The notes under the pieces are model-generated. The model was not told where the DNA came from. It saw only the letters and a program-made list of their open reading frames with translations, and searched no databases. DNA of 64,000 nucleotides from Calditrichota bacterium (lineage in GTDB: Bacteria; Zhuqueibacterota; Zhuqueibacteria; Zhuqueibacterales; Geothermadaptataceae). A program made the translations under genes and the position numbers. This document shows positions 1-14,225 of the stretch, one piece after another (position 1 is the first letter of the stretch; each line of letters begins with the position of its first letter). The stretch lies in NCBI GenBank assembly GCA_008501765.1, contig QQUE01000007.1:310001-374000 (forward strand). Reading direction: 5' to 3'.

Positions 1-559
1 TCCCCTCATACAAAAGTTGTACATGACGAATAAGTTGCGGAATATAAAGTGTACACAAAAGTTTCTCGACTTCGGATATGAGCTCAGCGGAATTAGGCTT
101 ACCTGATTTAGCATGACTCAGTTGTTTTGCAACTTCGCGGTAACTCGTGAAAACATCTTGATAAGCTAACGCGGTGGCCGAATTGATGCAGTCGATTACT
201 ACGTGCGGCCTATAGCGCATCAAAATTTGATATAAATAGCTTGATTTCAGGACTTTATCACTTAATTCGCCAAGAACATCATCCATCATCAATAATCGGT
301 TTTCTGAGTTTTCAATTAATTCGTTTCGTGGCAAGTTTTGCAAACTATCCCGGACGAAAATATTTCCCCATTCTGCTGTTACAATCGTTTTCCCCTGTAA
401 TTCCCGCTTAAGCGCTTCGCACGCTTCATTCGATTCGTCTTCAGTCAGGCTGGCCACGATAATCTCATCCGGCGACTCTTTCAGCATCCTGCGGCAAATA
501 GCCATTCCAACCAAACCGGCACCACCAAGAACCAAAACACGTTTATTTGTTATCTCCAT
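1..559 (-). CDS. NAD(P)-binding epimerase/SDR-like protein, partial (3' end off window)
   Basis: Reading the minus strand from an ATG at 559 gives an open frame of about 186 codons that runs off the left edge. The N-terminus has a hydrophobic beta strand followed by GGAGLVG, the glycine-rich nucleotide-binding loop of extended short-chain dehydrogenases/epimerases. After it come an acidic strand-end, a DVVIDC-like segment and helical stretches. The substrate cannot be told from this part. It overlaps the 3' end of the rluB gene by 17 bases on the same strand, so the two are probably co-transcribed, with rluB upstream. The C-terminal half, including any YxxxK catalytic motif, is outside the window. 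The assignment to the Rossmann-fold superfamily is firm; the exact family is not. Confidence 0.7.
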   Translation of the reverse strand, partial: MEITNKRVLVLGGAGLVGMAICRRMLKESPDEIIVASLTEDESNEACEALKRELQGKTIVTAEWGNIFVRDSLQNLPRNELIENSENRLLMMDDVLGELSDKVLKSSYLYQILMRYRPHVVIDCINSATALAYQDVFTSYREVAKQLSHAKSGKPNSAELISEVEKLLCTLYIPQLIRHVQLLYEG

Positions 560-1304
560 GGTCCAACTCCACAGCTTTTTTAAGAGATAATAACTCTCTT
601 TTCGTTAAATAACGCCATGCCCCAGGGGCAAGCGAGCCAAGTTTAAGTGTATCTATTTGAAAACGCTGCAAGTATTTCACTCGGGCCCCAACCACGGCAA
701 ACATTTTACGAATTTGCCGATTTCGACCCTCTGTGATAGTTACAACGCATACTTTGCGATTTTTTGTATTTGGAAAGTGGATGTGTGCTTTAGCGCGCAC
801 TGATCGGTCAATCATCACCCCTCTTGTAAACATTTCCCGAATTTGCGGTGGTGCCGGCTTCTTTAAAATTACGTTGTATTTTTTTTCTACTTTATATTTT
901 GGGTGGATCAGGCTATTGGCAAATTCACCATGGTTGGTAAACAAAAGTAATCCTTCAGATTCTTTATCCAATCGACCGATTGAGAAAATTCTCTGCGGTG
1001 TTCGCACCAAATTATAAACAGTTTTTCTATTTTTCTCATCGCTTTTGGAGCAGATATAACCGACAGGTTTATTATGAATGATATAGGTAGGTTCAACATC
1101 TTGTTTGATTATGTTGCCATCGTAAACAACAGTATCCGATTCGGGATCGATTTGGTGGCCGGGAGAGGTGATTGTTTCGCCGTTAACTTTTATCCACCCG
1201 GATAAAATCAGTTTTTCAACAGACCGGCGTGAGCCCAATTCTGCCTGGGCAAGAAACTTATTCAGCCTGATTTTTGTTTGTTGCATCATCTCCTGCTTGT
1301 TCAT
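543..1304 (-). CDS. rluB: Pseudouridine synthase, RsuA/RluB family
   Basis: This 253-residue protein has an N-terminal S4 RNA-binding domain (about residues 12-60, with LNKFLAQAELGSRRSVE) and a catalytic domain carrying GRLDKESEGLLLFTN, where the Asp is the conserved catalytic residue of RluB/RluE/RsuA enzymes. The late EGRNRQIRKM motif is also typical. Such enzymes isomerise a specific uridine in 23S or 16S rRNA; RluB rather than RsuA or RluF is inferred from length and from the scpA-scpB-rluB gene order, which is common in bacteria. The frame start is at 1304, but Met6 or Met7 (1289/1286) directly after an AGGAG sequence are plausible too. It overlaps scpB by up to 47 bases, which suggests translational coupling. 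Confidence 0.9.
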   Translation of the reverse strand: MNKQEMMQQTKIRLNKFLAQAELGSRRSVEKLILSGWIKVNGETITSPGHQIDPESDTVVYDGNIIKQDVEPTYIIHNKPVGYICSKSDEKNRKTVYNLVRTPQRIFSIGRLDKESEGLLLFTNHGEFANSLIHPKYKVEKKYNVILKKPAPPQIREMFTRGVMIDRSVRAKAHIHFPNTKNRKVCVVTITEGRNRQIRKMFAVVGARVKYLQRFQIDTLKLGSLAPGAWRYLTKRELLSLKKAVELDHGDNK

Positions 1305-1935
1305 TTTCTTCTAAAACATCACCCGAATCGTCGGACTCTTCCAAACCAGCAAGCGTTTCAACAATTTGATCAGAGTAATTACCTTCCTTGAAGAGTTCCT
1401 CTATTTCACGTGGTTTGGGCAATTCGTTGATATTATTAATACCAAAATATTCCAGAAATTCAGGGGTTGTCGAGTATAGAAGCGGACGTCCAATTCCTTC
1501 CCCGCGTCCCGAAATTGTAACAAGGCGTCTCTCGAGCAAGTTTTTAACGACGCCATCGGAATTTGCACCGCGTACAGCGGAAATATCGGCTTTGCTGATA
1601 GGTTGTTTAAACGAAACCACGGCCAGGACTTCCAGGGCTGCCTGCGATAATTTATTTCGAATACGCCCTGTGTACATTTTTTTGATATACCCGGCATATT
1701 CTGGTAATGTTATCATCTGATATCCGCCGGCTACCGTTACAATATTAAAAGCGCGACCAGATTCTATATATTCGCCGTTTAAAATATCCACAGTTTCCTG
1801 AATTGAGTAGCCATTTATTTCATCACTTAAATAGGATTTCAGGTTTTTTTCGCTCACAGGTGTGTCTGCGGCAAAAATTATAGCCTCAAGCATTTTCATA
1901 AACTGCCTGAATTCTACTTTTTCATTTTTATCCAT
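1258..1935 (-). CDS. scpB: Segregation and condensation protein B
   Basis: The 225-residue protein has the two winged-helix layout of ScpB, with the conserved stretch LSQAALEVLAVVSFKQPISKADI near residues 93-115 and GRGEGIGRPLLY-like sequence near residues 143-155. ScpB dimers bind ScpA and regulate the SMC ATPase in the chromosome-condensing SMC-ScpAB complex. It follows scpA with a 22-base overlap if Met1 is used; Met13 or Met15, just before the first conserved helix (LEAIIFAADTPVS), are alternative starts. The acidic C-terminal tail (about 25 residues rich in E and D) is low-complexity and probably disordered. The scpA neighbour makes the identification secure. Confidence 0.93.
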   Translation of the reverse strand: MDKNEKVEFRQFMKMLEAIIFAADTPVSEKNLKSYLSDEINGYSIQETVDILNGEYIESGRAFNIVTVAGGYQMITLPEYAGYIKKMYTGRIRNKLSQAALEVLAVVSFKQPISKADISAVRGANSDGVVKNLLERRLVTISGRGEGIGRPLLYSTTPEFLEYFGINNINELPKPREIEELFKEGNYSDQIVETLAGLEESDDSGDVLEENEQAGDDATNKNQAE

Positions 1936-2636
1936 ATTTCACCGAAAGTCGACGATTGTGTGATCACTATTTTTCCATCTCTTATAAGTTCCAACATAGC
2001 TATAAATGTGACGATAACCACGATTCGCGTTGTTAATTTTTCCGCCAATTCATAAAAAAGTAGCACGCCGTTGTTATTTGCCAACTCGGTTAACAGGAAG
2101 GCCATTTGTTCCTCAGCGGTCACTGAATGTTGCTCGATATGATGATGTGTTATGCGCGGCTTGCGTTTCAGCACCTCTTTAAAAATGCTCATGAGCTCAA
2201 ATAGTGAATAATTGCCATTTGGCTCCCAGATGATCTCCTCATCCTCCGTGTTATAATCGAAAAAACGCCGGCTGTAAACGAGACGCCGCTGTTGTTCCAA
2301 CTCGGACATATCTCCGGTTATCTCTTTAAAGCGTTGATATTCAAGCAATTGTCGTATGAGCTCATCACGGGGATCTTCTTCAACCTCTTCGTCGTCCTCA
2401 ATCGGACTTTTGGGCAGTAACATCTGGGCTTTAATTCGAATCAAGGTTGCCGCTAAAAGGATAAAATCACTTGCATATTCAAGATCCAGCATCTTGATAA
2501 TTTCAACATATTCCAAATATTGCCGGGTTATTTCCGCAATGGGAATATTAAACAAATCAACTTCATTTTTTTTGATTAAAAAAAGAAGCAGGTCCAATGG
2601 ACCATCGAAATTTTCAAGTTGAACATGATAGCTCAT
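1914..2636 (-). CDS. scpA: Segregation and condensation protein A
   Basis: This is the kleisin subunit of the SMC-ScpAB condensin. The N-terminus contains the family signature FDGPLDLLLFLIKKNEVDLFNIPIAEI (residues about 9-35), which binds the SMC neck. A charged linker follows (DDEEVEEDPRDELIRQLLEYQ), and a C-terminal winged-helix segment should contact the SMC head. At 240 residues it is of normal length. Its start overlaps the trpS stop by 4 bases (ATGA), so trpS, scpA, scpB and rluB look like one translationally coupled run. trpS lies upstream of the condensin genes, an arrangement seen in several FCB-type bacteria. Confidence 0.94.
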   Translation of the reverse strand: MSYHVQLENFDGPLDLLLFLIKKNEVDLFNIPIAEITRQYLEYVEIIKMLDLEYASDFILLAATLIRIKAQMLLPKSPIEDDEEVEEDPRDELIRQLLEYQRFKEITGDMSELEQQRRLVYSRRFFDYNTEDEEIIWEPNGNYSLFELMSIFKEVLKRKPRITHHHIEQHSVTAEEQMAFLLTELANNNGVLLFYELAEKLTTRIVVIVTFIAMLELIRDGKIVITQSSTFGEIWIKMKK

Positions 2637-3658
2637 TTTTTTAATAGCAATTTTTCTTCGAACATTTTTTGTAATACAATTTCCGGTCGAATGATACCAA
2701 CCGCTTGGCGCACCCTCTCCATCACTTCCGATGATCGTTTGCGTGCCTTTTTCGCACCTTCTTGAAGGACTTCTTCAATGTAATCTAAATTATTTTGAAG
2801 CTCATTTCTCTTATTTCGGGCATCCTCAAAATAGGAAAACATTTTATCTAACAATTCTTTTTTTGCATGGCCATATCCGTACTCGCCTGAAAGAAAATTC
2901 TTTTTCATGTCATTCAGCTCAACAGGCGTTGCAAAAAGTTTGTATAAATCGATAATAGTCGATGCCTCCGGATCTTTGGATTCCTCGAGTGATTTTGAAT
3001 CAGTGACAATACGCATCACTTTCTTTTTTAATGGTTTATATTCGAGAAATATTTCCAGGGTATTATCATAACTTTTACTCATTTTCTGCCCATCAATTCC
3101 CGGAACCACAGCCACATCAGATAAAATCATTGGCTCCGGAACAGTCAGTATTTCACCATAAATATTATTAAAACGGATGGCAATATCGCGTGTCATTTCG
3201 AGATGTTGTTTTTGATCTTTGCCGACGGGAACAAGGTCGCTGTCATAAATCAGGATATCGGCAGCCATTAAAACCGGATATGCGAACAGTCCGTGCGATG
3301 GTAAAATGCCACGGGCTGTTTTATCTTTATAAGAATGCGCTCTTTCCAATAAGCCCATCGAAGTTACCGTTGAGAGAATCCAGGCCAGTTCGGTCACTTC
3401 CGGCACATCGGATTGCATAAAAAGTGCTGCTTTTTCCGGGTTGAGGCCAAGCGCGAGGTAATCAAGCGCGACCTGGCGGCTGTTTTCTGCCAGAATTTTC
3501 GGATCGCTAATCGTCGTTAAAGCATGATAATTCGCAATAAAATAATAACATTCATTTTCAACCTGCAGATTTAAAAACTGCCGTATCGCACCAAAATAAT
3601 TCCCGATATGCAAAGTTCCAGATGGCTGAATTCCACTCAAAATTCGTTTATTTTTCAT
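2633..3658 (-). CDS. trpS: Tryptophan--tRNA ligase
   Basis: The enzyme charges tRNA(Trp) with tryptophan. As a class I synthetase it shows the HIGH-equivalent sequence HIGNYFGA at residues about 17-24, after the usual SGIQPSGTLHIGN opening, and the KMSKS loop (DGQKMSKSYDNT) near residues 192-203. DLVPVGKDQKQHLEMTRDIA is the conserved dimer/active-site segment. The length, 341 residues, is typical of the bacterial enzyme. No T-box or trp leader was seen in the 30 bases separating it from the upstream HNH gene. It heads the scpA-scpB-rluB group with an ATGA overlap. Confidence 0.95.
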   Translation of the reverse strand: MKNKRILSGIQPSGTLHIGNYFGAIRQFLNLQVENECYYFIANYHALTTISDPKILAENSRQVALDYLALGLNPEKAALFMQSDVPEVTELAWILSTVTSMGLLERAHSYKDKTARGILPSHGLFAYPVLMAADILIYDSDLVPVGKDQKQHLEMTRDIAIRFNNIYGEILTVPEPMILSDVAVVPGIDGQKMSKSYDNTLEIFLEYKPLKKKVMRIVTDSKSLEESKDPEASTIIDLYKLFATPVELNDMKKNFLSGEYGYGHAKKELLDKMFSYFEDARNKRNELQNNLDYIEEVLQEGAKKARKRSSEVMERVRQAVGIIRPEIVLQKMFEEKLLLKK

Positions 3659-3688
3659 ACTTAACTTTCATTGCCGTAATCATCTTAA

Positions 3689-4207
3689 TCAACTCATAAA
3701 TAAATAAGGTTTCCAGTTATCATCCGTAAACTTTATTTCCTGCTGGATAAAGAAAAGATAATTGGGTTTCTTTGGTTTTGATAACAAATGCATATTTGCC
3801 ATTTCTGGCGTCCTGTCGCCCTTTTTATTATTACATTTAAAACAGGCACATACCAGATTTTCCCACGAATCGGGGCCTGACATCTTTTTTGGGATCACGT
3901 GGTCGACAGTCAACGGATGGGACTTTCCTCCGCAATACTGGCAGCGGAATCCATCCCGGCGTAAAACATTTTTCCGAGAAAGAATGACGCGTTTTCGCGG
4001 GATGCAAACATAATTACACAGCCGGATAATACTCGGATATGGATAACTTAGCATAATTGATCGAATCACCAGAGCCGGGTATTTTTCAATTATTTCGGCT
4101 TTTCCAAGATACACCAATACGATGGCTTTTTGAGCGGTTACAACACTCAAAGGCTCATAACTTTGATTCAAAATTAAGACTTTACGTTTTAATGAGACGG
4201 AAGCCAT
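3689..4207 (-). CDS. HNH endonuclease family protein
   Basis: This 172-residue protein begins with a short beta-rich domain (KVLILNQSYEPLSVV) and ends with an HNH nuclease domain. The metal-binding parts are CQYCG, LTVDHVIPKKMSGPDSWENLV and CFKCNNKKGDRT, giving two CxxC knuckles and a DHV catalytic core. Proteins of this architecture are widespread, chromosomal and single-copy in FCB bacteria and Cyanobacteria. They are not obviously tied to mobile elements, and their physiological role is not settled. It sits in the housekeeping run between the thioesterase and trpS genes, which argues against it being an intron-borne homing enzyme. The nuclease fold is secure; the function is unknown. Confidence 0.85.
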   Translation of the reverse strand: MASVSLKRKVLILNQSYEPLSVVTAQKAIVLVYLGKAEIIEKYPALVIRSIMLSYPYPSIIRLCNYVCIPRKRVILSRKNVLRRDGFRCQYCGGKSHPLTVDHVIPKKMSGPDSWENLVCACFKCNNKKGDRTPEMANMHLLSKPKKPNYLFFIQQEIKFTDDNWKPYLFMS

Positions 4208-4350
4208 ATCAAATGCCTGTCTTATTGAACAAGTTGCTGACCTGATTTATTGATTTTCAGGAATGCAAAATATATGAAAATACGAAAATAGAAAACAACA
4301 GAAATTTGGTTCTATGTAAAAACTGGATTTTAGCAATTATATCTCTTAAA

Positions 4351-4761
4351 TCATGAATCCGGGAAGTAAGGAGCCATAATATTTTTAAATTCCCTTGGCG
4401 GACGGACGGGCCTGCCATCACGCCGAATAAAACTGTGAATTGTGAAGCCTTCTGCCAGCTTTTCCTGTTTCTCGTTGGTAATCGTGTACTCGAGATGAAT
4501 TCGAGCCCGGGGTTTTTCATTAATTTTTGTATGAATCGTCAGCATATCATCATAGCGGGCGGATTTAAAGAAATTGCAATTTGCTGTTATTACCGGTAGT
4601 AAAATACCATTTTCTTCCAATTTTTTGTATGGGAGCCCGGCATCTCGCAGCAGACTTGTCCGCCCTATTTCAAACCAAATAAAATAATTGGAATGATAAA
4701 CAACGCCCATCTGATCTGTTTCCGCAAATCGCACACGAACCTGGGTTTTATGTTCTACCAT
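4351..4761 (-). CDS. Acyl-CoA thioesterase, YbgC/4HBT hot-dog family
   Basis: This single hot-dog domain of 136 residues starts with VRVRFAETDQMGVVYHSNYFIWFEIGRT. The Asp-Gln-Met-Gly-Val-Val-Tyr stretch is the catalytic loop of 4-hydroxybenzoyl-CoA-thioesterase-like enzymes (YbgC type). It probably hydrolyses short-chain or aromatic acyl-CoA; the substrate is not evident. It lies 11 bases downstream of accA on the same strand, so co-transcription with a fatty-acid synthesis gene is likely. The usual Tol-Pal neighbours of ybgC are absent here, so I do not use the name. About 140 bases without a gene separate its end from the HNH gene. Confidence 0.86.
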   Translation of the reverse strand: MVEHKTQVRVRFAETDQMGVVYHSNYFIWFEIGRTSLLRDAGLPYKKLEENGILLPVITANCNFFKSARYDDMLTIHTKINEKPRARIHLEYTITNEKQEKLAEGFTIHSFIRRDGRPVRPPREFKNIMAPYFPDS

Positions 4762-4772
4762 TTTTGTAAAGA

Positions 4773-5747
4773 TTAACCTTCGCGAAAGGGATGCTGTGAG
4801 TAAAAACCCATGTTCTCATATTTTTCAATTCGTTTGGCAACGAGCGCATCCGGTTTCATTTTTTTTAGCTTCTTCAGGACGTCGAGTATTTCTTTTTTAA
4901 GTATCTGCGCTGCTTCGTCATGGTCACGATGGGCGCCGCCCGGCGGCTCCTTAACAACGATATCGATAACATTCTGTTCTAATAAATCCGGCGCGGTAAG
5001 TTTGAGCGCTTCGGCAGCTTCTCCAGCTTTGCCGGCATCTTTATGCAGAATAGACGAACACCCCTCGGGAGAGATAACGGAGAACCATGTATTTTCCATC
5101 ATCAATATTTTATCGCCGACGCCAATGCCCAGAGCACCACCCGATGCTCCTTCGCCAATAATGACAATAACGATTGGCACAGGCATAACAGCCATTTCAA
5201 ATAAATTTCGTGCAATCGCTTCGGCCTGACCCCGTTCCTCGGCCCCAATCCCCGGATATGCACCCGGTGTGTCAACCAGTAAAATAATTGGACGGTTAAA
5301 TTTTACAGCCAGTTTCATCACACGGAGGGCTTTGCGATAGCCTTCCGGATGGGCCATGCCAAAATTCCGGTGCAATTTTTGTTTCGTGTCCCTCCCTTTC
5401 TGATGGCCCATAATTATGACTTTTTCGCTACCAAGTTTGCCCAATCCGGCAATAATAGCCGGATCATCGCTGAAAGCGCGGTCACCGTGTAGTTCAACAA
5501 AATCCTCAATTATTCGTTCGATATAATCACGGGTGAACGGGCGCTGTGGATGTCGCGCCAATTTCACTCTTTGTTCGCGTGTTAATTTCGCAAAAATCTC
5601 GCTCTGCATTTTCCGCGCTTTCGATTGCAAGCGATCGATTTCATCGTCCAGAGAAATACCCTCAGAGCGGGCATAGTCTTGCATTTCTTTTATTTGTTGT
5701 TCCAATTTTATAATTGGCTTTTCAAAATCAAGAACAAAATTTTGCAT
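4773..5747 (-). CDS. accA: Acetyl-CoA carboxylase carboxyltransferase subunit alpha
   Basis: AccA pairs with AccD to transfer the carboxyl group from carboxybiotin to acetyl-CoA, giving malonyl-CoA for fatty-acid synthesis. The 324-residue protein has an N-terminal coiled helix (LEQQIKEMQDYARSEGISL), the family sequence RPFTRDYIERII, the crotonase-fold segment HGDRAFSDDPAIIAG, GHQKGRDTK and the oxyanion-forming GEGASGGALGIGVGD near residue 200. Length and motif order match bacterial AccA. accD is not adjacent. The thioesterase gene follows after 11 bases. Confidence 0.95.
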   Translation of the reverse strand: MQNFVLDFEKPIIKLEQQIKEMQDYARSEGISLDDEIDRLQSKARKMQSEIFAKLTREQRVKLARHPQRPFTRDYIERIIEDFVELHGDRAFSDDPAIIAGLGKLGSEKVIIMGHQKGRDTKQKLHRNFGMAHPEGYRKALRVMKLAVKFNRPIILLVDTPGAYPGIGAEERGQAEAIARNLFEMAVMPVPIVIVIIGEGASGGALGIGVGDKILMMENTWFSVISPEGCSSILHKDAGKAGEAAEALKLTAPDLLEQNVIDIVVKEPPGGAHRDHDEAAQILKKEILDVLKKLKKMKPDALVAKRIEKYENMGFYSQHPFREG

Positions 5748-5765
5748 CGTGCTTTGTTACTCCAG

Positions 5766-7898
5766 CTAAATTTTAAAAATCGTTTTGAAAATTATCTCAA
5801 TATCAAGCAAAATTGAATAATTCATAATATAAAACAAGCGGTATTTTTCTTTCTCGTCAGCGCTTAATTTCCTGTTCCGGCCCACTTGCGTCAGTCCTGT
5901 CAAGCCTGGCTTCACCAAAATGAGGGGTGAATCACCCTGAATGCCATAGTCGAATAATTCTCTTCCGACGATGCTTAAATCGCCTTTCAACACATACCAC
6001 ATAAGGGGTAGTTTTGCTAAAAACCGGCCCTTTTTAAGATAGCCTACTTTTAATACTTTGTGACGCTTCCCGGCTGTCAACGGTAGATTAATTTTTTGCC
6101 ACCTGGATTTATTAAAAATGAAATATACGAAAAAAACAGGCATTGCGAAAGTTAAACATAATAATGAGACGATAAAATCGAACATTCGCTTTTTTATTTT
6201 ATTGGCATTTGAAGCTAATTTGTATTCGATGTCAAGAAGTGGAGCATCGCTCAATTGATCGATGCTCGCTTTGCCAATGACCACATCAAGATTGCTCGGA
6301 ATAATTTTAAAATGGGCCGAATGCGAACGTGATTTTGTTAAGGCTGCTAATATATGATCATATGAAATTCGTTGCGTGCTGAAAATAACTTCGGTTATTT
6401 TTCTTCTGTGTACTGTCTCATCAAGGCTTTCCAGTGTCGTTAAAACGGAAACGCCATTATATTCTTTGCCGATATCTTCGGGGTTTATGCTCACCAATCC
6501 GATAATATCATATCCTGCACCGATGCGTGTCCGTAATTTCTCAAGCACTTTTTCGCCTTTGGAAAAATCGCCAACAAGAAGCGTTGGTCTTGCCAGGAGC
6601 GTGTGTCCAAGCGTGCCGTGAAAAGGCGCAAGATCAAATCGGTGCAAAAATTTTAGAAAAAATCGCCAGCCACTAATCAGGAAAAAATTCATGCCACCCG
6701 CAAAGAGCATCACAGCCCGGGAGTAGGCATAATCTTTAAAAAAGTATGTAATTGCGCTATTTATAAGAAAGCCGCTTAAAATTGCAAATCCAGCCTTGGA
6801 TGAGGAAAATTTCCATTTGCCGTACGATCCTGTTATAATCAAACAGGATAGCCATACAGCCGAATAAACAATATTTACAGGCAAATAGTCAATCCAGAAA
6901 GATAAATGGCCAAATTTGAAATACAACGATGCAAGCAGCGAAATTTGCAGCAAAAGTAAATCAAATGCCGGAACAGCGGCGGTACGCATTGAATTTTGCA
7001 GAAAGCTCAATCCAGCGCGTGTCCAGATTGCGAAAAGTAAAATTTGGTAAGTTATAAAAAAGTATCTTTTCCGGAAGTGTTTTTTTACGAACAGAGCCAT
7101 CGCTTTGTAAAATATCAACAACCCGTCAAGATGACTTTGCTTGCTGCTCTCCCCTTTAAAATGGATTAATTGTGTAATTGGTGCGTAGTAAATTTTCCAT
7201 CCTGCTTCGATCGTCCGGTAGCACCAGTCCAAATCCTCCCCATAGAGAAAAAATTCTTCATCCAGCAAACCAATCTGCTCCAGCGCGTGCCGGCGTACCA
7301 TCATGAACGAGCCTGAAATGGCTTCGACTTCTGTGGTTTCATTTTCGGGGAGATAAGTTAAATTGTAACGGCCAAACAGTTTAGAATTTGGAAAAAAATA
7401 GCTCAGACCAATCAACCGGGTGAAGGCAACCCAGGGTGTCGGATAACTGCGGCGGCAAGCCAATTGCAAACTGCCATCGGGATTTAATACTTTGCATGTG
7501 GCCATGCCCGCGTCTTTGTGCATGTCCATAAATTCCAGCATTTTAGAGAAGGTATCTTCCTGGGTAATCGTATCTGGATTGAGCAGAACAATATACGCAC
7601 CCCTTGACTTTTTGATTGCCTGATTGTTCGCTCTGGAAAAACCAATATTCTGCGTATTCGCGATTAAATGGATCTGCGGAAATTGCTCCTGAATCATTTT
7701 CTGGCTGCCATCGTCGGAGGCGTTATCCACGACAAATATCTCCGAAGGAATTTGCTTCAACGATTTTTCCAGGGAATGCAAAACTTGTTGAACAAATGGT
7801 TTTACATTATAATTGACGATTACAATGGAGATACGAATCGGGTCTTCCGGGGAATTACGCTCGGATTGTGCGGTCACAGAAGGGTGTTTTTGTTCCAT
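5766..7898 (-). CDS. GT2 glycosyltransferase fused to membrane domain and degenerate polyprenyl-P sugar transferase
   Basis: This 710-residue multi-domain protein starts with a family 2 glycosyltransferase of the rhamnosyltransferase (WbbL-like) type: SIVIVNYN at 25-32, the nucleotide-sugar site NPDT at 107-110, SGSFMMVRR at 195-203 and GEDLDWCYR at 220-228. About five hydrophobic segments follow (280-410), then a Rossmann-like CoA-binding-type domain (438-545). The C-terminal region (568-710) resembles PglC/WbaP-type phosphoglycosyl transferases: KRMFDFIVSLL, YVLKGDLSIVGRE, KPGLTGLTQVG and MNYSILLDIEIIFKT. The segment that normally carries KFRSM and the catalytic SLDELPQL is shortened to GRFLAKLPLMW, so the Asp-Glu dyad is missing. 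The GT2 part is probably active and the PGT part probably not. It likely acts in O-antigen or other surface glycan assembly at the inner membrane. Confidence 0.82.
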   Translation of the reverse strand: MEQKHPSVTAQSERNSPEDPIRISIVIVNYNVKPFVQQVLHSLEKSLKQIPSEIFVVDNASDDGSQKMIQEQFPQIHLIANTQNIGFSRANNQAIKKSRGAYIVLLNPDTITQEDTFSKMLEFMDMHKDAGMATCKVLNPDGSLQLACRRSYPTPWVAFTRLIGLSYFFPNSKLFGRYNLTYLPENETTEVEAISGSFMMVRRHALEQIGLLDEEFFLYGEDLDWCYRTIEAGWKIYYAPITQLIHFKGESSKQSHLDGLLIFYKAMALFVKKHFRKRYFFITYQILLFAIWTRAGLSFLQNSMRTAAVPAFDLLLLQISLLASLYFKFGHLSFWIDYLPVNIVYSAVWLSCLIITGSYGKWKFSSSKAGFAILSGFLINSAITYFFKDYAYSRAVMLFAGGMNFFLISGWRFFLKFLHRFDLAPFHGTLGHTLLARPTLLVGDFSKGEKVLEKLRTRIGAGYDIIGLVSINPEDIGKEYNGVSVLTTLESLDETVHRRKITEVIFSTQRISYDHILAALTKSRSHSAHFKIIPSNLDVVIGKASIDQLSDAPLLDIEYKLASNANKIKKRMFDFIVSLLCLTFAMPVFFVYFIFNKSRWQKINLPLTAGKRHKVLKVGYLKKGRFLAKLPLMWYVLKGDLSIVGRELFDYGIQGDSPLILVKPGLTGLTQVGRNRKLSADEKEKYRLFYIMNYSILLDIEIIFKTIFKI

Positions 7899-7931
7899 AA
7901 AACTTTAAAATCTGTCCTTTTGTTAGGCGGC

Positions 7932-8654
7932 CTAATATTTATGTTTTGCAAACAATTCATTAAATTTAAGACGCCAAACCATGAAAGCAGCCTCAATCAT
8001 TACTTTTCTCGACATTTTACTGCTGCCACTCTCGCGATCGGTAAAAATAATCGGCAGCTCTTTAATGCGGTACTTTTTTTTCCATGCAAACCAGTGCAAT
8101 TCAATTTGAAATGAATATCCATCACTGCGAATATTGTCGAGATCGATGTTTTCCAGCACTTCACGGCGAAAACATTTAAATCCAGCTGTGCAATCCTGAA
8201 GCGGCAAACCGGTAATCGTCCGGGTGTACCAATTGGCCCACAGACTAAGAATGAGGCGGGATAAAGGCCAATTTATTACGTTCACACCAGTTAAATACCG
8301 GGATCCAATCACGAGATCAAAATTATCCATTGCTTTTAAAATGCGTGGTACATCAGCAGGATTGTGGGATAAATCAGCATCCATTTCAAAGATAAAATCA
8401 TATTTTTTATTGATTGCATACTTGAAACCTGCAACGTAAGCTGTGCCTAATCCCATTTTTCGGGATCGCTCCAGGATGTGTACACGCTCATTGGTCGCCA
8501 TCACTTTTTTTATCTCCTCTGCTGTCCCGTCTGGCGAATTATCGTCGACAAAGAGCAAATCGACATTATCGCTTGTCACCTGGAAAATGTTGGCGATCAG
8601 ATTCTCGATATTCGTTACTTCGTTATATGTGGGAATGACAATTAACGTCTTCAT
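7932..8654 (-). CDS. Polyprenol monophosphomannose synthase-type glycosyltransferase 2
   Basis: The 240-residue single GT2 domain has VIPTYNEVTNIENLI, VDDNSPDGTAEEI and the DXD-bearing MDADLSHNPADV, followed by GSRYLTG. These are the hallmarks of dolichol/polyprenol-phosphate mannosyltransferases (DPM1, Ppm1). The family transfers mannose or another hexose from a nucleotide sugar to polyprenyl phosphate on the cytoplasmic face, making a lipid-linked donor for membrane GT-C enzymes. There is no C-terminal membrane domain, so it is the soluble, DPM1-like form. The DUF2723 protein nearby is a plausible user of such a donor (inference). Confidence 0.88.
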   Translation of the reverse strand: MKTLIVIPTYNEVTNIENLIANIFQVTSDNVDLLFVDDNSPDGTAEEIKKVMATNERVHILERSRKMGLGTAYVAGFKYAINKKYDFIFEMDADLSHNPADVPRILKAMDNFDLVIGSRYLTGVNVINWPLSRLILSLWANWYTRTITGLPLQDCTAGFKCFRREVLENIDLDNIRSDGYSFQIELHWFAWKKKYRIKELPIIFTDRESGSSKMSRKVMIEAAFMVWRLKFNELFAKHKY

Positions 8655-8679
8655 TCAGGTCCTCTCAGCGATGATTCTC

Positions 8680-9594
8680 TTATTCATGTTTATTTTCTAT
8701 TTCAGATTTTAACTGCTCAATTCCACTACGAGCGTCAAGCATTTGTATCCCAAGTTCCTTTTTTGCTTTTTTTAATAAAAATCCTGAGTTCAGTGGTCGA
8801 TTGGCAGCCTGGCCGAGATCGGCAGTTTTAATACGTTCGATCAGATTGGGATCAAGTTGATAAACATCTGCAACCATTTTGGCAAAATGGTAGCGGTCAA
8901 TAATTTCGCTGCCGGATAAATGGAATACATCGTTAATGCTGGATACGGCTAATTTTATCAGCGCGGAAGCCAGATCGCTGGCCAGGGTTGGATTGCCGAT
9001 TTGATCGTCAACGATGCGAATCTTGTTTTTATTACGCAACTGTTCAACTATCCATGTTACGAAGTTCAAGCGTGCACCGGGCGCAAATCCATACAAAACC
9101 ATCGTTCTCCCGATTGCCCAATTGGCCCCGGAAGTTGTCAATTCATTTTCTCCGGCCAATTTGGATTTGCCGTAATATCCCAAGGGATCTGGTTTGATAT
9201 CTTCACTATACGGTCCACTATTGCCATCAAAAATATAATCCGTAGAAACATGAATTAACCGGCTGCCGCTAAGACGTGCTGCATGCGCAAGCCGCGCCAC
9301 CCCTTCGACATTAATTTTCCAGCACAACTCTTTTTCTGTTTCAGCGCCATCAACATTTGTATAAGCTGCCGCGTTAAATATATATCTTGGATGATGGCTT
9401 TTTATCAGCGCTGTCATCTCTTTTTGATTTGTGATATCCGCTTTGATATATTTAACACCTTGAAGGCACAATTCTTTCTTTATAAATAAATCGAGGGCAA
9501 ATACATCAAATTTGTTTTTCAATTGCTTTATCAAATTATACCCAAGCAATCCATGGGCACCGGTAACGAGAACATTGGCTTTAACTTTATGCAT
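8680..9594 (-). CDS. dTDP-4-dehydrorhamnose reductase-like NAD(P)-dependent oxidoreductase
   Basis: This 304-residue extended SDR has VTGAHGLLGYNLI at the N-terminus, FNAAAYTNVDGAETE, the HVSTDYIFDG strand with catalytic Ser/Thr, and YGKSKLAGE with the Tyr-Lys pair. These match RmlD/RfbD, which makes dTDP-L-rhamnose from the 4-keto intermediate. The other rml genes are not in this window, so related sugar-nucleotide reductases remain possible. It overlaps the PfkB kinase gene by 8 bases and precedes the polyprenol-P mannose synthase gene, fitting the surface-glycan block. Confidence 0.83.
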   Translation of the reverse strand: MHKVKANVLVTGAHGLLGYNLIKQLKNKFDVFALDLFIKKELCLQGVKYIKADITNQKEMTALIKSHHPRYIFNAAAYTNVDGAETEKELCWKINVEGVARLAHAARLSGSRLIHVSTDYIFDGNSGPYSEDIKPDPLGYYGKSKLAGENELTTSGANWAIGRTMVLYGFAPGARLNFVTWIVEQLRNKNKIRIVDDQIGNPTLASDLASALIKLAVSSINDVFHLSGSEIIDRYHFAKMVADVYQLDPNLIERIKTADLGQAANRPLNSGFLLKKAKKELGIQMLDARSGIEQLKSEIENKHE

Positions 9595-10519
9595 AGGGTT
9601 GAATTTTCTCCTCGAAATTTTTCCTGGTGACTGAGCCTAAAAATGTTGTATTTAGCGAGGCAATATGCACAGCTTTTTTTACGGATTCCCAAAAATTGGT
9701 TGATCGCAGAAACTGCAAAAGAAAAACAGAACCAAATGTATCGCCACAGCCAATAATATCGATAACTTGCCCTGGAAGGTTTGCGGGGCTGATTAATTGC
9801 AGATTTATTGAATCATCTTCACTTTTCACCCCGGCCAGAACGCCTTTACTCCCCAGTGTTATAAAAATTCCACGCGGCCCAAACTGAAAAAGACGGTGTA
9901 TGAATTCATTCATTTTACGCAGATTGTTTTGAATTTCAGAACCAAACAGGATAGCTGCTTCATTTTCGTTCATCTGAACATAATCGACATATTTAAACCA
10001 CTCCTGCCAATTGGAAGGTCGCCGCGGAAATCGTTTCCCGGATTCATCCCGCGCCAGTGCAAGCGTATGAAAATCAAAATAAATGAGTGATTCTGAGTTT
10101 TGGCGAAATTGTTTTAAAGTATTCAGCGTGATATCTTCACCGGAGACCATGTTAAAAAGAACAGCTGAGAATAGTTTAAGTTGTTCAATTATTTCTGGAT
10201 CAACCGGAGGCATCAAAGCAGTGGATGTCTCTTCCCGTTCGGTTTCGCTCACATAATTTAAGGTCACGGCTGTATTGATATTTGGGAGTACAGTAAGAAA
10301 ACGCACATCGACCCGTGGAAGATTTTTCAACGCTGCTTTCAGAACAGGTTCAAAATCGCGACCAATGTTTGCAACAGGGAATAGCTTGAATTCATCCTGT
10401 GCCAGAAATGCAGCTGCGGCTAATCCATGAAAAAGGCCACCAATACTCTGTTTGTTTTTTCCCTGCAGCGGAACGATTTCATCGCGGATAAAAGTGCCAA
10501 CGAATGCTATTTTTTTCAT
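9587..10519 (-). CDS. PfkB-family carbohydrate/nucleoside kinase
   Basis: The 310-residue ribokinase-like protein has an N-terminal SIGGLFHGLAAAAFLAQ segment (the sugar-binding GG region) and the C-terminal anion-hole/catalytic-base motif DIIGCGDTFGSVFL, in which the usual GAGD reads GCGD. ITLGSKGVLAG is the conserved strand before the ATP site. The substrate could be ribose, fructose, adenosine or a heptose; nothing in the sequence decides it. It is translated ahead of the RmlD-like gene with an 8-base overlap, so a role in activated-sugar supply is possible but unproven. Confidence 0.82.
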   Translation of the reverse strand: MKKIAFVGTFIRDEIVPLQGKNKQSIGGLFHGLAAAAFLAQDEFKLFPVANIGRDFEPVLKAALKNLPRVDVRFLTVLPNINTAVTLNYVSETEREETSTALMPPVDPEIIEQLKLFSAVLFNMVSGEDITLNTLKQFRQNSESLIYFDFHTLALARDESGKRFPRRPSNWQEWFKYVDYVQMNENEAAILFGSEIQNNLRKMNEFIHRLFQFGPRGIFITLGSKGVLAGVKSEDDSINLQLISPANLPGQVIDIIGCGDTFGSVFLLQFLRSTNFWESVKKAVHIASLNTTFLGSVTRKNFEEKIQPYA

Positions 10520-10572
10520 AGGCCGGATGTTCTGTCGAATGCAATCTGAAACAGATAAACTGAAGCAGTCAA

Positions 10573-11031
10573 TTATAATCTTGCACCGTTTTTTCTGAAT
10601 TCGGTGAGTTTTTTTTCTAATTTTTCCGAGCCGAGAGAAAGCATCTCTGCGATAAAAATCGCCGCGTTTGCTGCGCCCGCGGAACCAATCGCCATTGTTG
10701 CGACGGGGACTCCTGTCGGCATTTGCACTGTTGAATAAAGTGCATCAACACCCTGAAGTGCCGATCCCGGCATCGGCACGCCAATGACAGGCAGTGTAGT
10801 ATGAGCTGCTACAACACCTGCCAAATGAGCTGCCATTCCAGCAGCTGCCACGATGGCCACATAACCTTCCCCCCTGGCCTTGGTGCTGAATTCAGCCACT
10901 TGTGCAGGGTTCCGGTGTGCTGATAGTATCAGGAGTTCATTTTCGATACCAAAATAATCCAAATACTTCTGACAATTTTTAATATTATCTTTATCACTTT
11001 TACTGCCAATCAAAATGGCGACTTTTGACAT
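10573..11031 (-). CDS. purE: N5-carboxyaminoimidazole ribonucleotide mutase
   Basis: PurE interconverts N5-CAIR and CAIR in purine biosynthesis. The protein shows VAILIGSKSDKDNIKN, LSAHRNPAQV with the catalytic His, and AAAGMAAHLAGVVAA-HTTLPVIGVPMP, all canonical for class I PurE. I choose ATG 11031, which has AAGGA 8 bases upstream and gives 152 residues; a TTG further upstream at 11046 is in frame but less likely. It lies between the DUF4837 lipoprotein gene and the PfkB kinase gene, with purK not nearby. Confidence 0.95.
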   Translation of the reverse strand: MSKVAILIGSKSDKDNIKNCQKYLDYFGIENELLILSAHRNPAQVAEFSTKARGEGYVAIVAAAGMAAHLAGVVAAHTTLPVIGVPMPGSALQGVDALYSTVQMPTGVPVATMAIGSAGAANAAIFIAEMLSLGSEKLEKKLTEFRKNGARL

Positions 11032-11061
11032 AATTCTATCCTTCAAGTCTATCGGGTTTGT

Positions 11062-12111
11062 TTAATTGCTTTTTACCTTTAATTTTTCTTGTTGTAAATC
11101 TTCCCGGGTTCGAAAAGTGCGGGCAATGGCTTCCAGTTGATTGAGATAGGCAAGTTTATTATTTCGCGACGGGGCATATATCGCTATATCAATGATGTAG
11201 GCTCTTTGGGTATTTTCATCATAAAAAACAAATGCTTTCATGGCACCACCAGCTACCTTTTCCTTATTCTCCCACAATCCCTCAAATTGCAGCGCCCAAC
11301 GCCCGTTAATTTCTGTTTCACTGAATTTATACAGCGTGTCGACAACCACATCATTTTCATAATGCAAGCGGCCAATTTCAGCACGTTTTTTTAAAAACCA
11401 CTTTTTATCAAGGATGATTGTCGGGTCTTCGGTTTTTACCCAGTGGACATAGATCCAGCGTTCGGGATTAATTCTCCGGAAATGAACGAAGTTGTTTTGT
11501 GGTATATCCTGAAAAAAGTGATAATCGTGGGGAATTCGCACCCGCCAGCCATAGTTTTTCATGAGTGAATCTGCGAATTCTTTCTGCTCATAGCGTGAGT
11601 AAATTATCTCCGAGGTCCGGGCGATTAAATTGTTGTGCATTAAAGAGTACAAATAGTTCTTGTTTCCTGTGATATTATCAATTAATTGTTCTGCCGATTC
11701 TCCGGCAAAAACAAGTAAGAGTTGTTTTTCAGCCCAGGGATTTTGTTTTCGAAAAACATAGCCTTCACCCTGCCGAACCTTGTCGAGCAATTCCGGATTT
11801 AGCATTTGTTTAACTTGATTTGAAGTTATATCGGTACCGGCGAGAAGCCCGATCATAATAACATTATGTTGGATGCTGGCGCGGGATAATTCTTTGCCAG
11901 GCATGTAAGTAAGCTGGAAACGTTTTTCAGGCCAGGGCGTTCGTACTTCCCTTTCATAAACATTGGCGAGATGTGGTTGTAAAACATTATAAAGCGCACT
12001 GTCAGCGACGACTATAATTCTGTTTTCCTGGCCTTTGGCGGTTTTCTTTGTTGCGCATCCAGAGCTGAATCCAAAACCAATCAGGGCCAATAGGATTAAA
12101 AATTTTTCCAT
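11062..12111 (-). CDS. DUF4837 family lipoprotein
   Basis: This 349-residue protein starts with a lipoprotein signal peptide (EKFLILLALIGFGFSSGC, Cys at residue 19), so it should be lipid-anchored in the envelope. The mature part resembles DUF4837 proteins, which are characteristic of Bacteroidetes and relatives: NRIIVVADSALYNVLQP, TPWPEKRFQLTYM, and a C-terminal GRWALQFEGLWENKEKVAGGA region with INPERWIYVHW. The function of the family is unknown. It is upstream of purE by 30 bases. Recognition is from memory of the family's general features, so a profile search would be needed to confirm the number. Confidence 0.75.
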   Translation of the reverse strand: MEKFLILLALIGFGFSSGCATKKTAKGQENRIIVVADSALYNVLQPHLANVYEREVRTPWPEKRFQLTYMPGKELSRASIQHNVIMIGLLAGTDITSNQVKQMLNPELLDKVRQGEGYVFRKQNPWAEKQLLLVFAGESAEQLIDNITGNKNYLYSLMHNNLIARTSEIIYSRYEQKEFADSLMKNYGWRVRIPHDYHFFQDIPQNNFVHFRRINPERWIYVHWVKTEDPTIILDKKWFLKKRAEIGRLHYENDVVVDTLYKFSETEINGRWALQFEGLWENKEKVAGGAMKAFVFYDENTQRAYIIDIAIYAPSRNNKLAYLNQLEAIARTFRTREDLQQEKLKVKSN

Positions 12112-12217
12112 TTATTTGCCTTTCCTCGTTGTTCTTTCTAAAAACTTACCGTCAGTTCTTAGTTCAATACACCCTAACAAACAAGGTTTCACTTTCAATT
12201 TTAAATCAGAGGAATAT

Positions 12218-13177
12218 CTAAGTTTTACGCCAAATAGTGAGCAATGTCGCACCGCGGCTTTGTTCCAACAAAGGTGAAAATAAGCCTGCCATTATCGAAA
12301 CAAAGCCAATTATCGCAGCGCGTAAAAAATGGAACAATCTCCCAACCACGGATGTTCCATAGCGTGTTTCGATAAGCTGTTCACTCATCACAACGTTAAA
12401 TAATGAATCGAGGAACAAGTTTGACTTTTTCACCAGTTGAAAATTATGCAATTCAAGAAACTTCTGCAAGCTTTTAAGGTGAAAATGATTTACATGCCGC
12501 GGCGTATCGTACGCGATCCAGTTTTGTTTATAAAATTTGGCATCGAAACTTGCGCAGTTGGGCACAGCCAAAACAAGCAATCCATCTGCAGAAAGCACCC
12601 TGGAAATCTTTTTTATTTCATCCTGTGGGCTATAAATATGCTCCATTACATGCCACATTGTAATTACATTCACCGTTTCGAAATCCGTCGGTAAATCGTC
12701 CAAAGTGCCTGTTGTTATCGACAGGTTATTTTGGTCGCGCCCGAAAGCGGCTGCATCCGGGTCTCTTTCAACACCATGTACCTGCCAGTCAGCCGATTGC
12801 ATTTCCCGTAAAAACTCCCCGGTGCCGCACCCAATATCTAAAATTCTGTTCCGTTCAGTTGCAAATTTCTCAATCATCGTCCGTTTATTACGATTGTTGA
12901 AAATACGCAGTTTAACATAAATTTTATCTGTGATCGATAGTTTGGCTTGTGTAGAAATATGGGGTGAATACGCAGCATTTTCATAGTATTTTCCGCTTTG
13001 CGATTCCACAGGCCGCGGATTGAGATAAATATGTTTACAGTCGCTGCATTGAACAAGATTGTAGAAATCGCCAATTCCCAAATCAAATCTGTCCGGTGTT
13101 TTTAAATATAATCCACTTTGTTCGCAATCACAGAGCGGACAATTGGTAAATTCAAAATTCTTCATATTTTTAGTCAC
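12218..13177 (-). CDS. Class I SAM-dependent methyltransferase with N-terminal zinc-binding motif
   Basis: The protein begins with a zinc-knuckle-like region (CPLCDCEQS, then QCSDCKHIYLNPRP, Cys pairs near residues 14-17 and 44-47). A methyltransferase core follows, with the SAM motif RILDIGCGTGEFL and the HVMEHIYSPQDEI segment typical of the Methyltransf_11/23 group. Such proteins often modify sugars or lipids in polysaccharide clusters. The 5' end is uncertain: a GTG at 13177 overlaps the upstream GT2 gene by 8 bases, and an ATG at 13165 is also possible. A hydrophobic C-terminal stretch (about 275-300) could associate with the membrane. It is in the same run as glycosyltransferases. Confidence 0.82.
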   Translation of the reverse strand: MTKNMKNFEFTNCPLCDCEQSGLYLKTPDRFDLGIGDFYNLVQCSDCKHIYLNPRPVESQSGKYYENAAYSPHISTQAKLSITDKIYVKLRIFNNRNKRTMIEKFATERNRILDIGCGTGEFLREMQSADWQVHGVERDPDAAAFGRDQNNLSITTGTLDDLPTDFETVNVITMWHVMEHIYSPQDEIKKISRVLSADGLLVLAVPNCASFDAKFYKQNWIAYDTPRHVNHFHLKSLQKFLELHNFQLVKKSNLFLDSLFNVVMSEQLIETRYGTSVVGRLFHFLRAAIIGFVSIMAGLFSPLLEQSRGATLLTIWRKT

Positions 13178-14210
13178 AATTTAAACTCGAATAGGTCTTT
13201 TTACCTCTTCCAAAATAATGCCAGACAACGCTACTTTTAAACATCTTTTGTCTGATTGTTTTATCGCTGACCTGCCGAATCTTTTGCACGGATTTTCGTT
13301 TCTGAATTATTTTTCGTAGCTTGAAAGTCACAGCAATTAGCGCTTTCAATATAGCCATAGCTTGTTTGATATCCAATTTTGCGAGAGCAAATAAAATCGC
13401 TAAAAATTCAAAGACAATTCTTGGTGGGAAATACAAAACCAAACTCAAAGTACCGTAGTTTTTCAGCAGCATTTCGAGATTATTGCGGTGATTGAGAAAT
13501 ACTTTTCGCGGTGATTCTTGTGCCAAAGTCGAACCGGCGCTATGTTTTACGACCGAACCTGGAACAGAACCAATCTTAAAACCGGCCAAATGAAACCGCC
13601 AATCGAGATCAATTTCCTCCATGTGAGCAAAAAAATCAGAATCAAACATGCCTGTTATTTCGACAGCATCGCGCTTTACTAATGTACAGGTTCCACTGGC
13701 CCAAAAAAGTTCGCTGGTTGTGTCGTATTGATTTTCGTCTTTTTCAATCGTAAAAAAAATTCGGCCACGACTGAATGGGAATCCAAAAACATCCATTTTA
13801 CCGCCCGCAGCCCCGGCATAATCAAACCAGCCATCCCGGTCAATAGAAACAATTTTGGGTTGCAATGCAGCGTAATTCGGGTGTGTTAGAGCAAATTTCA
13901 TGAGCTCGGAGAGCCAACCGGCCGTCACCATCGCATCGTTGTTCAACAGCAACAACCAGGAACCTTCTGCCGCTTCCATGCCTAAATTACACCCCCCCGC
14001 ATAACCCAAATTTTCTTCAGATCGAATTACTTTAATTTGCGGGAACGCTTCTTTTGCGATCTGAACACTCTCATCAAAGGAAGCATTATCAACCAGCAAA
14101 ATTTCATGGGGATAATCCGTATGATCGGCGAGGGATTTCAGACAGCGCATGAGAATCGCCTCGCCGTTATAGTGGGGAATAATTATACTTACGAGTAAGT
14201 TTTCTGGCAT
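13170..14210 (-). CDS. Glycosyltransferase family 2
   Basis: This 346-residue protein has an N-terminal GT2 domain with VSIIIPHYNGEAILMRCL, VDNASFDESV and the DXD-like NNDA in LLLLNNDAMVTAGW. It also has the rhamnosyltransferase-type SGTCTLVKRDA and HMEEIDLDWRFHLAG, which correspond to the acceptor/base region. It resembles the N-terminal part of the large GT2 fusion at 5.8-7.9 kb but lacks the extra membrane and transferase domains. A basic C-terminal tail with a hydrophobic segment near 250-275 may bind the membrane. The donor sugar is unknown. It ends 8 bases inside the methyltransferase gene. Confidence 0.86.
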   Translation of the reverse strand: MPENLLVSIIIPHYNGEAILMRCLKSLADHTDYPHEILLVDNASFDESVQIAKEAFPQIKVIRSEENLGYAGGCNLGMEAAEGSWLLLLNNDAMVTAGWLSELMKFALTHPNYAALQPKIVSIDRDGWFDYAGAAGGKMDVFGFPFSRGRIFFTIEKDENQYDTTSELFWASGTCTLVKRDAVEITGMFDSDFFAHMEEIDLDWRFHLAGFKIGSVPGSVVKHSAGSTLAQESPRKVFLNHRNNLEMLLKNYGTLSLVLYFPPRIVFEFLAILFALAKLDIKQAMAILKALIAVTFKLRKIIQKRKSVQKIRQVSDKTIRQKMFKSSVVWHYFGRGKKTYSSLNCD

Positions 14211-14225
14211 GCACTTTATTCCGGG

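Follow-up and report, generated by a model that had tools for sequence, protein, structure and literature searches.

We report a protein family in which a GT2 glycosyltransferase is fused to a large monotopic phosphoglycosyl transferase (Lg-PGT) that has lost its catalytic site, represented by a 710-residue protein encoded in the window, a 64,000-nucleotide stretch of a Calditrichota bacterium genome (contig QQUE01000007.1). The dead domain is a pseudoenzyme fixed in the family, and to judge by what aligned orthologues have lost and kept it probably serves to dock the GT2 to the membrane. The Asp-Glu dyad has been taken as a feature of all members of the monoPGT superfamily (PMC10519829), and we found no description of an inactive or pseudo-PGT family in the largely open-access literature searched. 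PF02397 matches are annotated as sugar-phosphate transferases, and a dyad-less family that is under selection warns against such annotation. That it lacks the site phylum-wide and is nonetheless selected implies a non-catalytic use of the PGT fold; the family is also a natural separation of membrane-anchoring from catalytic residues, and a handle on the membrane organisation of successive glycan enzymes.

Domain organisation of the fusion protein

The features discussed here are as follows, all on the minus strand.

4773..5747, minus strand: accA, immediately downstream, a neighbour conserved across the phylum (synteny table)
5766..7898, minus strand: 710-residue GT2/pseudo-Lg-PGT fusion protein (reading frame open; full-length orthologues in the phylum)
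7059..7835, minus strand: GT2 domain, residues 22-280 (Pfam PF00535/PF13641)
6609..7052, minus strand: Lg-PGT-type membrane helix bundle, residues 283-430 (overlaps the NCBIfam EPS_sugtrans match; aligns with the WbaP membrane region)
6231..6608, minus strand: CoA_binding_3-like Rossmann domain (the Lg-PGT 'DUF'), residues 431-556 (PF13727)
5769..6230, minus strand: pseudo-phosphoglycosyl transferase domain, residues 557-710 (PF02397; profile-profile match to active PGTs)
6114..6191, minus strand: re-entrant membrane helix, with K570-R571 (PglC K7-R8), D574 and helix-break P587 (PglC P24)
6030..6035, minus strand: deletion junction at codons 622/623, where about 30 residues (PglC about 62-87) are absent
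6012..6017, minus strand: dyad position, PglC Asp93-Glu94 replaced by Ala628-Lys629 (PDB alignments, 74-sequence alignment, hhalign)
7932..8654, minus strand: DPM1-like GT2 (resembling polyprenyl-phosphate mannose synthase), the adjacent upstream gene in many classes

An initial annotation of this DNA had placed a GT2-PGT fusion with a CoA-binding-like fold at 5766-7898, and the reading frame, the coordinates and the fusion are confirmed. Pfam matches GT2 at residues 24-208, CoA_binding_3 (PF13727) at 376-534 and, over residues 611-709, Bac_transf (PF02397), of whose profile only positions 72-176 are covered, at a score of 68 bits against a cut-off of 27. Among 45 orthologues, PF02397 is matched in all and PF13727 in 44. 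The NCBIfam Lg-PGT family EPS_sugtrans matches residues 312-593, and a C-terminal profile of 428 columns matches WbaP (8t53, E 9.8e-25) and also PglC. Lg-PGTs have been defined by a helix bundle, a PF13727 domain and a monotopic core (PMC10942596); here a bundle of four membrane helices and PF13727 precede the PGT core, and to judge by these predicted domains everything that follows the GT2 amounts to a full Lg-PGT by that definition.

The GT2 domain carries the GT-A motifs VVDN (D58), NPDT (107-110) and GEDLDW (220-225), together with H-F/Y-KG-x-S (246-251), and its catalytic residues are invariant at every aligned position among orthologues. Its nearest subfamily is the rhamnosyltransferase TIGR01556, to which it does not belong, the score of 67.3 bits being far under the curated cut-off of 200.55. 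AlphaFold models of the fusion protein, computed from a two-sequence alignment or from the single sequence only, were poor (pLDDT 37.7 and 47.6, respectively).

Loss of the catalytic site

We aligned 74 C-termini of the family (the window's own, L040 and 72 others) with PglC and with 13 other PGT domains from the phylum, of which 12 are intact and one is a dead tandem copy from genome G008. The initial annotation had held that the Asp-Glu dyad is lost, naming alignment to PglC as a check, and the loss is borne out: Ala628-Lys629 occupies the dyad position, and an Asp-Glu pair is present in 0/74 sequences. A lone Asp stands at the first dyad position in six of the 74, four from sister family f2 plus L016 and L026. 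PDB alignments (WbaP), the 74-sequence alignment with PglC and a profile-profile comparison (hhalign, probability 99.75, E 3.3e-27) agree on the register, in which FLAKLP aligns with the (S/R)LDELP of active enzymes (SLDELP or RLDEIP), Asp93 becoming Ala628 and Glu94 becoming Lys629. The further claim that a segment containing both KFRSM and SLDEL had been deleted thus needs amending: what is missing is the last part of KFRSM together with the mobile loop, whereas SLDEL has been substituted in register (SLDELP to FLAKLP).

The missing segment of about 30 residues lies between the KFRSM position and the equivalent of PglC Arg88, and includes the mobile loop that in PglC closes over the sugar nucleotide (PMC10519829). 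The positions of PglC T62, M63, K82 and K85 are gapped in 72-74 of the 74 orthologues (none of the 74 has M63, K82 or K85), the mobile loop is retained in 0/74, and the spacing from the Lys-Arg pair to the dyad position has a median of 58 residues, compared with 86-89 in active enzymes. The PRP motif (PglC 111-113), present in 13/13 comparison domains, is replaced in nearly all orthologues and reads R646 E647 L648 in the window's protein. One orthologue (L053, genome G055) has VGPRPE at this position, though it lacks the dyad and the loop. No alternative conserved Asp-Glu pair or displaced dyad is visible among the 74 aligned sequences; the only invariant acids of the domain, D574 and D699, are the equivalents of PglC D11 and D169, and no site for Mg and sugar nucleotide can be made out in the alignment. 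Chance, sequencing error, assembly artefact and lineage-specific decay are ruled out as causes, the same state being fixed in 74/74 sequences from many genera. The earlier view that an active GT2 carries a dead transferase domain is therefore well supported at the level of predicted function, with the catalytic residues invariant in the former and the dyad, PRP and loop gone from the latter.

Retained residues and selection

Residues equivalent to PglC K7, R8, D11, G110, Y160 and D169 are kept in 74/74 sequences and the helix-breaking P24 in 64/74, such that a re-entrant helix with its Lys-Arg pair (K570, R571) and proline break (P587) is predicted. In PglC, K7, R8, S23-P24 and D169 hold the re-entrant helix and its packing in place: K7 forms a salt bridge with D169, R8 contacts the head groups of lipids, and the helix is broken at S23-P24 (eLife 2018, PMC6133551). 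The Ser23 position is usually not Ser in the orthologues, and likewise in local active enzymes. The motifs KRMFDFIVSLL, VLKGDLSIVG and PGLTGLTQVG, previously noted as flanking remnants of PglC/WbaP enzymes, are all present. Newly appeared residues conserved specifically in the family are Y694 (72/74), E701 (61/74) and K/R705 (70/74), and E682 is likewise counted with E701 and K705. PglC R88 and R145, which hold undecaprenyl phosphate (PMC10519829), are not conserved in the orthologues; position 179 is Lys or Arg in 45/74.

The dead domain is under purifying selection, with dN/dS of 0.09-0.20 across 12 close pairs. Its mean pairwise identity of 0.35 is the lowest of all parts of the protein, that of the GT2 (0.65) being the highest. 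The pseudo-PGT domain is further eroded, with the GT2 intact, in L125 and L126 (genomes G075 and G076) and in L040.

The family belongs to the monotopic PGT superfamily by descent (PF02397 fold); of the features of the catalytic definition, it lacks the Asp-Glu dyad, the mobile loop with KFRSM and PRP, and has the re-entrant helix as predicted from sequence. With Lg-PGTs of the WbaP/WcaJ type (TIGR03025; PDB 8t53) it shares the four-helix bundle, PF13727, the PF02397 fold with its KR..D re-entrant helix, and the motifs VLKGD.S.VG, KPG.TG and YY..NYS..D, but it is without the dyad, KFRSM/mobile loop and PRP, and has an additional N-terminal GT2. Relative to the small monoPGT of C. concisus, PglC (PDB 8g1n/8e37), the topology residues K7, R8, D11, P24 and D169 are conserved whereas all catalytic and nucleotide-side motifs are missing. 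Bifunctional monoPGTs (Bi-PGTs) likewise combine a monoPGT body with a fused functional domain; here, in contrast, the PGT half is a pseudoenzyme and only the partner domain can be active.

Distribution, gene order and origin

Searches of 60 relatives, and then of 82 genomes of the phylum, found orthologues in 76 of the 82; five of the six genomes without one (G002, G025, G035, G040, G041 and G080) are less than 90% complete. Outside the 82-genome set, a scan of genome contigs gave L040 as the only full-length relative, with an unsupported placement in the tree; another candidate, L041, turned out to be an ordinary active PGT. A scan of viral contigs matched only a distant GT2.

Wherever the flanking sequence reaches far enough, accA is the next gene downstream of the fusion gene, and in many families, including those of other classes, the fusion gene is preceded by genes for the DPM1-like GT2, RmlD, a PfkB kinase, PurE and DUF4837. 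The gene thus sits in a housekeeping block that is conserved, in contrast to the variable clusters of polysaccharide genes. In the window, the block at 543-16955 reads DUF2723 - GT2 - methyltransferase - DUF4837 - PurE - PfkB - RmlD - DPM1-like - GT2/pseudo-PGT - accA - ybgC - HNH - trpS - scpA - scpB - rluB, and much of this order is preserved in other classes of the phylum. Intact PF02397 proteins are encoded in 82/82 genomes, so initiating PGT activity is supplied elsewhere; in the window's own genome, L076 and L078 are active Lg-PGTs.

In a maximum-likelihood tree of Lg-PGT halves, the 30 orthologues sampled form one clade (100/100), apart from both active single Lg-PGTs and active GT2-Lg-PGT fusions; the family, of single origin, is best read as a vertically inherited core glycosyltransferase. 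The initial annotation had asked whether homologues with an intact dyad exist. There are none among the orthologues, but active GT2-Lg-PGT fusions of the same domain order do occur in the same taxonomic order, including the window's own genome (L067; G000:C11:47589-49790, 753 aa). This protein shares only 27% identity with the window's, has LDEIP and KFRSM intact, and is encoded at a different locus. Because the active fusions fall in a separate clade, they are no recent parent but stem from a fusion event of their own or from a deep split. Descent from the local active fusion was rejected on this ground and because the GT2 half is nearer to single-domain GT2s (36-40% identity, versus 27%). 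In several genomes (L150-L155) the closest single-domain GT2 and its Lg-PGT counterpart, the closest single Lg-PGT, share one cluster, which is consistent with, but does not prove, a fusion of neighbouring genes.

Function of the dead domain

In this protein a GT2 is attached to an entire Lg-PGT body, comprising the membrane bundle, PF13727 and the re-entrant-helix PGT fold, in which the transferase site has been dismantled. We propose that the former PGT no longer makes polyprenyl-PP-sugar and is kept as a dock. It would keep the GT2 on the cytoplasmic side of the membrane, where the acceptor offered to the GT2 would probably be a lipid-linked product of one of the cell's active PGTs. The initial annotation had suggested either a membrane dock or a lipid-substrate binder. 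Of these a dock fits best, because the residues retained are those that fix the PglC re-entrant helix in the membrane: the topology residues persist throughout the alignment from which dyad and loop have vanished, in a single clade with an invariant GT2 site and a PGT domain under constraint. Counting against a dock, the protein should already be anchored by its four-helix bundle, with no obvious need for a further one; conservation is lowest in the dead domain, Ser23 is usually replaced, and both structural models are poor.

The binding role, in which the C-terminal domain would hold polyprenyl phosphate or polyprenyl-PP-sugar and deliver it to the GT2 as acceptor, draws on the retention of those parts that make up the PglC lipid cavity, namely the re-entrant helix together with the coplanar helices of the C-terminus, and on the basic residue frequent at position 179; it is weakened by the loss of the other two basic undecaprenyl-phosphate residues, R88 and R145, and we think it improbable. 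That the domain is a functionless, decaying relic might be read from its fast evolution, the fastest in the protein, and from the further eroded copies, but this falls with the purifying selection, the positions that are invariant or nearly so across 74 sequences, and a frame that stays open in nearly all orthologues phylum-wide, and is very unlikely. Catalysis by another route, through a migrated acid pair or a different reaction, is scarcely credible: other families do include pseudoenzymes that have acquired new chemistry (PMC10211241) and E682, E701 and K705 could be candidates, but there is no conserved adjacent acid pair, the mobile loop and PRP are gone, and the Mg/sugar-nucleotide site is unrecognisable.

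A reasonable rival, though we regard it as unlikely, arises from Salmonella enterica WbaP, which dimerises through its membrane bundle and PF13727 domain (PMC10942596), so that a dead subunit might pair with a live one. The dead Lg-PGT body would then be a regulatory or heterodimeric partner of an active Lg-PGT, bringing PGT and GT2 into one complex with direct hand-over of product. The fusion protein retains both dimer regions, active PGTs occur in every genome (82/82), and two independent dead PGTs of the same taxonomic order each adjoin an active one; however, the gene in the window has accA as its neighbour, in a housekeeping block, and no active PGT of a polysaccharide cluster adjoins it. 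Docking and partnership with an active Lg-PGT are compatible and can both hold.

Other dead PGTs in the same taxonomic order

The two further dead PGTs were chance finds, in genomes G008 and G009. As read from their sequences, their dyad losses are independent of the accA-linked family and more recent, and both lie beside active sisters. It is conceivable, if rather doubtful, that pseudo-PGTs are a recurrent class, in which the Lg-PGT body has repeatedly been made a non-catalytic partner that assembles initiating PGTs and the following glycosyltransferases into membrane complexes, once anciently and phylum-wide (the GT2 fusion) and, next to copies that are still active, at least twice in more recent times. 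In G008 (contig C7, L069), tandem GT2-Lg-PGT fusions are found, of which that at 2692-5025 has an intact dyad (LDEFP) and that at 5093-7369 has LEKIP, with KFRTM changed to RFRVK. In G009, a stand-alone Lg-PGT (L131:2852-4297; G009:C6:272851-274296) has LEGVP, with KFRSM changed to LLRTA and PRP to PRA; an active GT2-like/Lg-PGT fusion with LDEVP (L131:5840-8344) lies about 1.5 kb away.
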